A stretch of DNA of 61,689 bases from Halodesulfovibrio sp. (GTDB taxonomy: Bacteria > Desulfobacterota > Desulfovibrionia > Desulfovibrionales > Desulfovibrionaceae): positions 1-61,689 of the forward strand of contig NZ_JADMLB010000039.1 of the NCBI RefSeq assembly GCF_015482765.1, written 5' to 3'. Each line of letters starts with the position of its first letter. Within the stretch, counting starts at the first letter, position 1. The notes under the pieces are model-generated. The model had not been told where the DNA came from. It saw only the letters and a list, made by a program, of their open reading frames with translations, and ran no database searches. The translations under genes were made by a program, and so were the position numbers. Positions 24,153-27,381 of this stretch are shown piece by piece.

Positions 24153-24185
24153 AAGCCTCTTGTGTTCGCACAAGGGGCTTTTTTT
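24153..24185 (+). terminator. Terminator of the purine permease gene
   Basis: A 12-bp stem AAGCCTCTTGTG/CACAAGGGGCTT with a TTCG tetraloop is followed by five more T. Confidence 0.95.
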
Positions 24186-24279
24186 ATCGCTTTTCACGCA
24201 AATACATTGCCTTATCATAGGTTTTATCTGCCGTTATTGGGATAGTATGAGTAGGCTTTTTTATGAAAAGGAGTTTGCC

Positions 24280-25248
24280 ATGGCCCGAGAACTGAGCAGT
24301 AAATTTATACATGATCTGCACGAAAACGGTCCCCTGTACCCGTTTCTGGAATTTGTCCGAAAAGATACATCTCTGGATATGCAGATTCGTCCGGATGAGG
24401 TGCATATTTATTATAGAGGCATTGCGCTGCTGATAGTCCGTTTACGGGCTGGAAAGTATGACATGCTGTTTAATCAAAATTACCTGACTAAAAGCTATCC
24501 GGTCGACCTGCCAAGCGTTGATAATACGCTGATGGACGAACCGGAACGATGGATAGATATTTTTGCAGAATTAAAGACCTGCATAGACGTCTACCTTTCC
24601 TGCAACGAAAAGACTGTGTATTCCTGTGAAGAACAGGTGGTGGTCAAAGACTTCTTGCAGACAACCATGCGCGAAAACAGTTATTCTGCAGTAGCTCCGC
24701 GTACTGATTATCATATTACCGACATCGATTGCCAAAGCTCGTTTTCAACCGGTGTTGTTATGCGCTTTGATATGCTCGGCGTATATTTACCGTCGGAGAT
24801 CGGTGCACGGATTGATCCGAATCCGGCACTTGCAGTGTTTGCAATGCGGTTTGGAGCAATGAATCTTACAGGGCCGTATGGTCTTATTCCGTATCTCGAT
24901 AAGCTTTTTAAGCTTGTTGATGAAACACATGCTCTGCAAGAGCTTGCAGAAGAAGTGGAAAACGTCTTCTACCAACGCAAGGAGCTTATGCTTCCCGGCA
25001 GTCAGGTAGGCCATAAAGGCGGTCTGCGGGAGATTATCAGCAATAAACCGCATCTCATTATCAATTTGGCAAATCAGGAGCCTGAAGGCTCAAAGCTGGC
25101 AGAACTGCTTGAATCCAAAAAGCTGCAAAGCGTAGTCGGATTGCTGAGTGACTCTCTCGATGTCAAATTTGTGCACTCAAGATTTATGGGATACGGCATC
25201 TATCGTAAGTGCCTGTACTCTATAGATGAGGTGAAAAACATTCTATAA
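24280..25248 (+). CDS. Protein of unknown function, 322 residues
   Basis: The start was set at the ATG at 24280, which has AAAAGGAG six bases before it. The protein has no signal peptide or membrane segment. It has mixed alpha/beta character, with HIYYRGIALLIVRL near residue 45, a ITDIDCQSSF acidic motif near the middle and HKGGLREII in the C-terminal third. I do not recognise the family. It lies alone between two strong terminators, so it has its own promoter and is probably cytoplasmic. Confidence 0.8.
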   Translation: MARELSSKFIHDLHENGPLYPFLEFVRKDTSLDMQIRPDEVHIYYRGIALLIVRLRAGKYDMLFNQNYLTKSYPVDLPSVDNTLMDEPERWIDIFAELKTCIDVYLSCNEKTVYSCEEQVVVKDFLQTTMRENSYSAVAPRTDYHITDIDCQSSFSTGVVMRFDMLGVYLPSEIGARIDPNPALAVFAMRFGAMNLTGPYGLIPYLDKLFKLVDETHALQELAEEVENVFYQRKELMLPGSQVGHKGGLREIISNKPHLIINLANQEPEGSKLAELLESKKLQSVVGLLSDSLDVKFVHSRFMGYGIYRKCLYSIDEVKNIL

Positions 25249-25422: not shown

Positions 25423-26205
25423 ATGAAAATGCATAAACGCATAAAAACTGGAGTGCGGTGGAGCATGTTGAAACCCAGTTTGGATGTTACGCAGAAAATT
25501 ACTTCTGTCGTAAAAAGAAAGTACAAAAACGTTGCTGAGTCGTTGGAACACCAGTTTCGGTATCCGACGGGAAAAGATGGCTTACAGGGATTACAGTATC
25601 CTCAAGAGCTGATCGAATGGCTGCCGGAAGAGGTTGCTCAATGGTATTGCGGAGTGGGAAATCCGTTTTCATTGAGCGAAATCCGTTCAGGAGACCATGT
25701 CTTGGATATGGGCTGCGGAGCAGGAATTGATACTCTCATTGCAGCAAAGCTGGCAGAGCCTGAAGGCTCAAGCATCGGCGTTGATTTTTCAGAAGATATG
25801 ATTCGTCGGGCGCAGAGTAATAAAGAGTTGGCTGGTGTAGAAAATGTTTCGTTTCAGGTTGTCGATGGAACGGAACTGCCGTTTATAGATGAGCAATTTG
25901 ATGTGGTGACAACAAACGCCATGCTCAATCTTGCCGTGGATAAAGAAAGCGTACTTACAGAAGCATACAGGGTATTGAAAAGCGGAGGCAGATTGCATGT
26001 CTCTGACCAGATACTCGTGGGAGCCGCCATGTGCAGCGAGCAGGCAATGGACTGCTGGTTTAAATGACAAGGCGGCGCTATACCGGAAACGGAGTTTCTG
26101 GCACTGCTTGAAAAGGTGGGGTTCAAACAGGTCAAGAAAGTTGCAGACACGGGCTATAACAGCTCGGATGTAACAAACGGGATGCTGTTTTTCGCAAGTA
26201 ACTAA
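25423..26205 (+). CDS. ArsM-like SAM methyltransferase, probable selenoprotein (UGA at 26065)
   Basis: A class I SAM methyltransferase of the arsenite methyltransferase (ArsM) type. YPTGKDG and GVGNPF stand near the N-terminus, DMGCGAGIDT is the SAM-binding loop, and GGRLHVSDQI follows. The frame meets TGA at 26065-26067 and then continues for 45 normal residues (QGGAIPETEFLALLEK...) to TAA at 26205, giving about 260 residues, the family length. The TGA falls before GGAI, where ArsM proteins carry an arsenic-binding Cys. A hairpin starts 15 bases behind it. Together this suggests selenocysteine and not a dead gene. The start is uncertain: 25423 has no good SD and 25465 has GGAG nearby. Function may be methylation of arsenite or a related metalloid or thiol. 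Confidence 0.78.
26083..26101 (+). promoter_or_regulatory. Putative bacterial SECIS hairpin
   Basis: CCGGAAAC-GGA-GTTTCTGG forms an 8-bp stem (one G-U pair) with a G-rich loop, starting 15 bases after the in-frame TGA. Bacterial SECIS elements sit in this position and need a loop guanine for SelB. Confidence 0.65.
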
Positions 26206-26209
26206 TTAT

Positions 26210-26241
26210 AAAAGGATGAGCAAATTGCTCATCCTTTTTTC
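26210..26241 (+). terminator. Terminator of the methyltransferase gene
   Basis: A 12-bp stem AAAAGGATGAGC/GCTCATCCTTTT followed by more T. Its position right behind the TAA at 26205, and not behind the TGA, supports the longer gene. Confidence 0.93.
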
Positions 26242-26441: not shown

Positions 26442-27113
26442 TTACTTCGTAAAACGTAAGATCAGACCGCCCTTGTAGAGTGGAAGCGGACGTCGAAATT
26501 TATCCGAGGGTAATACCTTCAGAACATCATTTTCCAGATTGATCGTTCCGGCGAAACGGTCTCCTAGCGGGAGAGAGCCGATAAGTGTCAGCGTCGGCTG
26601 TTCCACCGGTCGTACTTCCAGTCCGAATGTCATTGATTCAGTTTTCGTGAAGACAAAGAAGAGCAGGGTGTGAAAGACCCCCGAGCCGCTTCCGAAGCTT
26701 AACGTATGAACAATGTTGATTCCTCCGGTTGTTGCTCCAACATAGATATAGCCGAACTCGCTATCGCCGTCTTTGTAGTAGACGTACGGCATCGCTTCAG
26801 TCGTCCGCACATGTACTTCACTGAAAAACTGATTGCTGATGTTAGCGTTATGCACGTTGATCGAAAGAATCTGTGAACCGCTGTCAGAGAGCGGGCCCTG
26901 CATTTCTTCAACAATTTTCGGATTGATAAATTCCTCTTTAAAAAAACTGTAGGTAGAAGTCTGCCAGTCGGGATCTACCGTCCAGCTGGTAGAAATTTCT
27001 TTTGTAACCGGAGGCGGCAGGGGGTTTTCCTTTTCTTTTGCACCGTGTGCAAAAGGGGTAATCATACAAAGCATAATGAAGCTGCAAAGCAGCGAGCATA
27101 GGATACGAAACAT
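26442..27113 (-). CDS. Exported protein of unknown function
   Basis: About 223 residues. The start was set at the ATG at 27113, preceded by AGGGAG, and gives a clean signal peptide (FRILCSLLCSFIMLCM, cleavage near AHG-AKE). The mature part is rich in beta structure, with GYIYVGATTGGINIVHT and GSGSGVFHTLLFFVF in the middle and a C-terminal PLYKGGLILRFTK. No family was recognised. It is probably periplasmic or outer-membrane attached. It is not clearly linked to the zraP module upstream, from which a minus-strand terminator at 27353-27381 separates it. Confidence 0.75.
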   Translation of the reverse strand: MFRILCSLLCSFIMLCMITPFAHGAKEKENPLPPPVTKEISTSWTVDPDWQTSTYSFFKEEFINPKIVEEMQGPLSDSGSQILSINVHNANISNQFFSEVHVRTTEAMPYVYYKDGDSEFGYIYVGATTGGINIVHTLSFGSGSGVFHTLLFFVFTKTESMTFGLEVRPVEQPTLTLIGSLPLGDRFAGTINLENDVLKVLPSDKFRRPLPLYKGGLILRFTK

Positions 27114-27352
27114 CTGATACTCCCTGAAGCTGTATAAAAACGGAACTGCAAAGCATCTGCAAAAAGCGTTGTGCGGTTGAGTAGTGCAGATGAAAAAACA
27201 GGCGGGTATTCCCGCATCCGTCATTATTGTAGCATGTAAGAAGGTGTTGGTAATGTGATTTTTCCCCGCAGAGCAAGCGGAGTGATGTTTTTGTAGCTGA
27301 ATAGGTGCGCGGGGAAGAATCGCTTGTGTGGCAGAAGCAGTCCATAGACGCA

Positions 27353-27381
27353 CAAAACCCCTGACCGGGGTAAGTCAGGGG
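27353..27381 (-). terminator. Minus-strand terminator
   Basis: The stem CCCCTGAC/GTCAGGGG with an 8-base loop is followed on the minus strand by TTTTGTG. It would stop transcripts coming from zraP or from an unannotated minus-strand RNA. Confidence 0.7.

Follow-up and report, generated by a model that had tools for sequence, protein, structure and literature searches.

A very probable selenocysteine at the arsenic-ligand position Cys224 of an ArsM-fold methyltransferase from Halodesulfovibrio sp.

The window analysed here is a whole stretch of 61,689 nucleotides from Halodesulfovibrio sp. (contig NZ_JADMLB010000039.1). In it an open frame on the plus strand, 25423-26205, has a single interruption, the TGA at 26065-26067, before it ends with the TAA at 26203-26205. 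This raises the questions of whether the TGA is decoded as selenocysteine (Sec) and, if so, on what the resulting enzyme would act. The original prediction, made from the DNA letters, was of an ArsM-like methyltransferase in which a selenol would change the affinity for a metalloid. Both questions bear on annotation: a gene model that ends at the UGA would cut off almost a fifth of the protein, and the label "arsenite methyltransferase" is a claim of activity that missing arsenic ligands put in doubt.

Recoding of the in-frame TGA

The features that we place at the locus are collected in Table 1. As predicted, the frame runs on beyond the TGA for 45 codons. The predicted start at 25423 fared less well: in-frame stops (TGA counted) lie between the equivalents of 25423 and of the ATG at 25465 in four of the five genus relatives, and this ATG is kept in all six genus members, so that the gene probably starts at 25465 rather than at 25423. 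At its other end a stop stands at equal distance in all six (TAA in five, TAG in L021). The terminator-like hairpin with its T run lies 3' of this later stop and not of the TGA, as had been anticipated; it was found by eye in the window and recurs in five of the six genus members, the exception being L023. Terminator-like hairpins, again judged by eye, flank the gene on both sides. Decay of the gene was considered on account of extra stops in the genus copies (TAA or TAG plus TGA in three of them, three TGA in a fourth) and was rejected, all stops other than the shared TGA being 5' of the conserved ATG. Among 21 hand-chosen large ORFs of the window, 13 end in TAA, 7 in TAG and 1 in TGA.

Table 1. 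Features of the locus, numbered by position in the window
Feature	Position	Strand	Remark
Upstream ORF of no known family	24160..25248	+	362 residues; adjoins the gene in the same 6 genus genomes
ArsM-like gene, very probable selenoprotein	25465..26205	+	246 residues, Sec as residue 201; probable ATG start, by comparison
Cys62 codon (YCGVGNP)	25648..25650	+	possible second chalcogen; two residues ahead of the Cys72 column
TGA, very probably read as Sec	26065..26067	+	column of CmArsM Cys224
Putative bacterial SECIS-type hairpin	26083..26101	+	8 bp with a GGA loop, 15 nt past the UGA; covariation and silent-site conservation
Stop codon TAA, taken as the true stop	26203..26205	+	read from the sequence and genus comparison
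Terminator-like hairpin and T run	26212..26240	+	3' of the TAA; by eye, not program-called

We consider it very probable that the TGA is read as Sec, because its column holds only Sec or Cys, the codons after it are under purifying selection, the hairpin downstream has compensatory changes, and selA, selB, selD and tRNA-Sec are all in the genome. The homologue set, a sample and not a full census, comprised the 80 best of at least 260 loci confirmed in a scan and 20 further loci; of these 100, the near-copies L060 and L045 (of L027 and L025) were dropped from all counts, leaving 98 distinct homologues. The original prediction expected Cys or U in the column, and this is what the homologues have without exception (98/98): U in 37 and C in 61. 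Within the window clade U, encoded by the same TGA, stands in all 25 rows. A close homologue is present in six of ten genus genomes, the source genome included, with TGA at the same codon each time, and the other four contain distant methyltransferases only (best E-values 1.1e-5 to 3.5e-8). The best 26 matches from a draw of 395 phylum genomes have one TGA each, and 21 further phylum loci (L141-L161, one per genome, none from the window genome) all have TGA at this codon. For eighteen of the latter, no tested 40-mer recurs in earlier loci; L142, L145 and L156 do have some in common with them, and L161 (FAGVAN) lies outside the window clade proper. That independent assemblies carry the same TGA argues against sequencing error, a concern raised with the original prediction.

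Pooled within the genus, pN/pS is 0.224 before the TGA and 0.291 after it, as against 0.920 for a control of 44 codons past the stop, which are non-coding and not truly aligned. By this measure we take the 45 codons after the TGA to be under purifying selection. Pooled pS in the genus is lower after the TGA than before it (0.456 vs 0.719), as an RNA element overlapping the coding sequence would lead one to expect. Reading through the TGA also raises the score against the best NCBIfam family from 233.5 to 300.9 bits. Scanned alone, the 46-residue piece from the TGA onward matches no Pfam family.

The predicted 8-bp hairpin with a G-rich loop 15 bases past the TGA is present, with a layout of 8+3+8 nt. 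The case for it as a putative SECIS-type element is one of covariation and silent-site conservation, not of stability, the folding energy of the single sequence being no more than slightly low (z -1.28 and -1.91). The six genus species share an invariant run at 26080-26105, their longest, which contains the hairpin; third positions are invariant at 8 of 8 codons there vs 32 of 231 outside 26065-26105 (Fisher p 3e-7, for a region chosen post hoc), and a run of eight did not arise in any of 20,000 shuffles of the 244 codon columns, of which 32 are invariant. Across the 25 window-clade rows 95.0% of helix cells are paired, compared with 84.8% after shuffling, and pairing is 68.0 and 56.5% when the helix is slid by one column. 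Cells changed on both sides number 22 vs 8.2 (sd 1.9) in shuffles, and the covariation score is 0.319 vs 0.153; for each of these three measures none of 500 shuffles was as high. Two other measures did not rise above the shuffles, namely pairs changed on both sides (3 vs 2.1; 66/500) and further pair types (9 vs 8.9; 346/500). Three of five pair measures thus exceed all shuffles, which ignore relatedness, and the pair count retains L027, whose hairpin is placed elsewhere. At the gathering threshold Rfam models found two tRNAs only in the window, and a search of viral contigs found nothing.

Sec decoding in this genome had been predicted to show itself in selA, selB and selC. All three were found, and selD with them: selA scores 621.9 bits (cut-off 267.9), selB 389.3 (cut-off 242.25), selD 340.9 (cut-off 125) and a tRNA-Sec with anticodon TCA 84.6. 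The tRNA-Sec model also exceeds its cut-off at another locus (L002, 47.6 bits), where ARAGORN calls tRNA-Ser. selA occurs in all 21 genomes that hold the 25 best TGA matches; it occurs in 355 of 395 phylum genomes as well, so this by-eye comparison has low power. G413, an 82% complete genome with a more distant TGA-type copy, is not among the selA carriers. In the selD of the source genome (L170:1432-1620, C45) a TGA stands in frame within an AAGU motif; selD is probably a selenoprotein itself, and its TGA is a second sign of Sec decoding.

That the TGA instead ends the protein, arose by sequencing error or is the trace of a decayed gene is very improbable: the unexceptional folding of the single hairpin, the four genus genomes without a close homologue and the terminal piece without a Pfam match would suit it, but it is opposed by the TGA shared across the window clade, purifying selection past it, the gain in family score and a terminator-like hairpin placed after the TAA, and we rejected error, pseudogene and plain stop on the conservation of the TGA in the genus, the pN/pS after it and the compensatory changes in the hairpin.

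Fold, ligand positions and family tree

The predicted likeness to ArsM holds for the fold and for one ligand column, but not for the other ligands or for the family score. When translated with Sec, the protein matches the SAM methyltransferase family Methyltransf_31 (1.7e-30), and its AlphaFold2 model (pLDDT 91.6, pTM 0.91) has as top PDB matches two structures of CmArsM from Cyanidioschyzon merolae, 4fr0 (TM by query 0.72) and 6cx6 (0.73). CmArsM, CrArsM and human AS3MT account for all of the thirteen best PDB chains, with TM by query of 0.64-0.73. Alignment, model and PDB matches agree on an ArsM-type Rossmann methyltransferase fold. HMMER places the Sec column on Cys224 of CmArsM (the residue number was hand-counted on the alignment), which bears out the prediction that the TGA aligns with the arsenic-binding Cys before GGAL. 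Unlike CmArsM, however, the window protein has Val in the Cys72 column and Ala in the Cys174 column, and it has 246 residues vs 383. Cysteines at three or more of CmArsM positions 44, 72, 174 and 224 were the selection criterion for ArsM given in the available text of PMC5552862; the window protein has at most two of the four, whatever stands at 44. Its score against the arsenite methyltransferase family (NCBIfam NF008823 / PRK11873) is 173.9 bits vs a cut-off of 263. On these comparisons we regard it as an ArsM-fold relative and not as a demonstrated arsenite methyltransferase.

It shares this condition with most of its homologues. Both Cys72 and Cys174 are absent in 80 of the 98 distinct homologues, and in these one-ligand rows position 224 is Cys in 45 and Sec in 35. 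Cys72 is found in 17 of the 98, each of which also has Cys174, and one more row has Cys174 alone. A quick tree, built without the Sec/Cys column and rooted by choice on the 18 canonical rows, separates these from the 80 one-ligand rows (SH-aLRT 91). On one of its branches (84) fall all 25 window-clade rows, which were named by Cys62 together with three hand-chosen loci; each of them is Sec. Sec and Cys alternate on the one-ligand side, and the tree calls for at least six switches between them. The 70 one-ligand loci with names come under 13 NCBI phylum labels, of which two are archaeal; many of the loci are metagenome bins.

Of the 35 Sec rows on the one-ligand side, 22 have Cys62, the second chalcogen candidate, vs none of the 45 Cys rows there; all six genus members have it, and it is missing from 3 of the 25 window-clade rows. 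In the ArsM proteins of two loci (L030 and L034, from G038 and G055 of the same order), Cys72 and Cys174 are kept and a TGA occupies the Cys224 position (WCGUISGA).

Known selenoprotein relatives and genomic neighbourhood

Sec in ArsM-type proteins is already known, and the window protein is a stand-alone member of this group. Arsenite methyltransferase appears among prokaryotic selenoproteins in tables of PMC9312934 (2022) and PMC13188914 (2026), and arsM is named among selenoprotein families in a passage of PMC2398784. The PMC13188914 table gives the motif UxxG, citing Fomenko et al. 2007, and adds three fused families, for which it cites Haft and Tolstoy 2025. Judged by its table entries, the arsenite methyltransferase selenoprotein WP_011987699.1, given in both PMC9312934 and PMC13188914, is like the window protein in being of ArsM type with one Sec in UxxG. 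The fused families are described in their entries as fusions of ArsM with DUF2284 (NF041536), of ArsM with AhpD (NF041537) and of a methyltransferase with UXPK-star (NF047649), with 2, 3 and 2 Sec, respectively. These three head the NCBIfam ranking of the window protein, followed by PRK11873 arsenite methyltransferase. Their N-terminal module matches its residues 23-258 of 260 (numbered from a start at 25423) with E-values of 1.1e-89, 8.7e-86 and 4.7e-81, and the window clade of the tree includes fused examples whose Sec is in the same position. Unlike them, the window protein ends with its TAA after the module and has no second Sec domain; it stays below the full-length cut-offs of all three (300.9/575, 287.8/510 and 271.9/460 bits).

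Departures from the cysteine triad as such are likewise known, since enzymes that need two cysteines (going by a 2018 title cited in PMC8649762) and the one-cysteine TtArsM of Thermus thermophilus HB27 are in print. For the one-ligand sister family, we found no description in the open literature among the matches listed.

Nine window-clade relatives were scanned, over hand-chosen stretches, for fusion to a selenodomain, and five have one: L039, L041 and L052 score over the cut-off for ArsM/DUF2284, L043 over that for ArsM/AhpD and L044 over that for UXPK-star. L027, L047, L048 and L064 reach none of these cut-offs. Fifteen more clade members, counting the window and not L024, look stand-alone, with TAA or TAG at most 60 residues past the Sec. 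A split version of the DUF2284 or UXPK-star fusion was also considered and is unsupported, the partner domains not being found in the genus genomes: DUF2284 is in 0 of 10 (1 of the 21 genomes searched), and UXPK-star is over its cut-off in 0 of 10 (0 of 21), with weak matches under the cut-off in 3 of the 10.

The upstream ORF has no Pfam or NCBIfam match at 1e-5. The six genus genomes that have the gene also have this ORF, with at least 78% identity; three of the other four have none and one has a 36% copy. A terminator-like hairpin, seen by eye, lies between this ORF and the methyltransferase gene, so that the two are probably on separate transcripts. Further upstream is a PF00860 permease, and downstream are a minus-strand ORF, a short ORF of no known family and a ZraSR-like two-component system. 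The minus-strand ORF (26442-27353) has no family match, and a similar ORF stands beside the gene in all six genus loci. Automatic clustering of neighbourhoods was disturbed by shadow ORFs. No arsenic family was found among the ten neighbouring ORFs scanned. Elsewhere in the one-ligand family, ArsR-type regulators are near L041, L042 and L092 (from ten hand-picked proteins) and a phosphate transporter is near L048; DUF1638 genes, at L025:2793-3431 and L043:2102-2881, lie near two window-clade selenoprotein genes.

Candidate substrates

Our preferred reading, to which we give a probability of about 0.5, is that of an ArsM-fold methyltransferase with Sec at the Cys224 position that would act on an organometalloid or another one-coordinate electrophile. 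SelB and tRNA-Sec would recode the UGA with the aid of the hairpin just downstream, as the comparisons support, and the selenolate would then be the sole chalcogen left at the three arsenic-ligand positions. There it would most likely hold, or nucleophilically activate, a soft electrophile that needs a single chalcogen bond, for methylation; a dimethylarsenite-like compound or another organometalloid may serve as an example. Cys62 might act as a second ligand or as a resolving thiol. The logic is that of CmArsM, whose cysteines, in the available text of PMC3877260, bind arsenite by three, methylarsenite by two and dimethylarsenite by one; there the C72A mutant lost arsenite activity and kept that on methylarsenite, and C174A and C224A were inactive on both. 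With only the 224 position left, the usual handling of arsenite would therefore not be expected and a one-coordinate substrate becomes possible. Supporting context, in the form of ArsR-type genes and fused selenodomains, was seen in relatives and not in the genus. The step in the original prediction from selenol to altered metalloid affinity finds no support in its unqualified form, given the Val and Ala at Cys72 and Cys174 and neighbours free of arsenic families.

The same residue could also serve as catalytic nucleophile or redox switch in a methyltransferase for a non-metalloid substrate. The breadth of the one-ligand family, with its many phylum labels and metagenome bins, agrees with this, and repeated interchange of Sec and Cys on the tree is what one would expect of a catalytic or redox position; but the closest solved relatives are all arsenic enzymes, and some relatives lie near ArsR-type genes or have further selenodomains, and we hold this explanation to be unlikely.

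Less likely still is an ordinary ArsM in arsenic detoxification, with Sec replacing Cys224 and other residues replacing the lost ligands. Its strongest precedent is TtArsM, which according to the available text of PMC8649762 methylates arsenite to mono- and dimethyl forms with a single cysteine, histidines being proposed as other ligands. Arsenite is still a possible substrate on this account. TtArsM is like the window protein, by its description, in being of ArsM type and working with one cysteine; it is unlike it in that this cysteine is C77 and in that the same text does not describe it as a selenoprotein. The ArsM fold, the solved relatives and the occurrence of Sec at 224 in the Cys72- and Cys174-keeping L030 and L034 point the same way. 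Against such an enzyme are the loss of both Cys72 and Cys174, the inactivity of CmArsM C174A on arsenite and methylarsenite, a score under the NF008823 cut-off and the ten neighbouring ORFs without an arsenic family.

Extended from the single protein to the family, the preferred reading of a one-coordinate substrate becomes a more tentative proposal, which we put somewhat below even odds: a sister family of ArsM, spread widely over bacteria and also in archaeal metagenome bins, would have discarded two of the three arsenic ligands, kept a single Cys or Sec and methylated an organometalloid or one-coordinate substrate and not arsenite, and the window protein would be a Sec-only, unfused version of the building block of the fused multi-Sec proteins. 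Should the one-ligand family have another substrate, surveys of arsM-like genes could overcount arsenic methylation potential, and there would be a selenium-dependent methyl chemistry yet to be found.

A further arrangement was seen in a Campylobacterota relative (L056:3971-5332), where a further methyltransferase domain is joined to the Cys form. About 250 residues past the column are also found in seven similar loci, one of which (L092) has an ArsR-type gene beside it.
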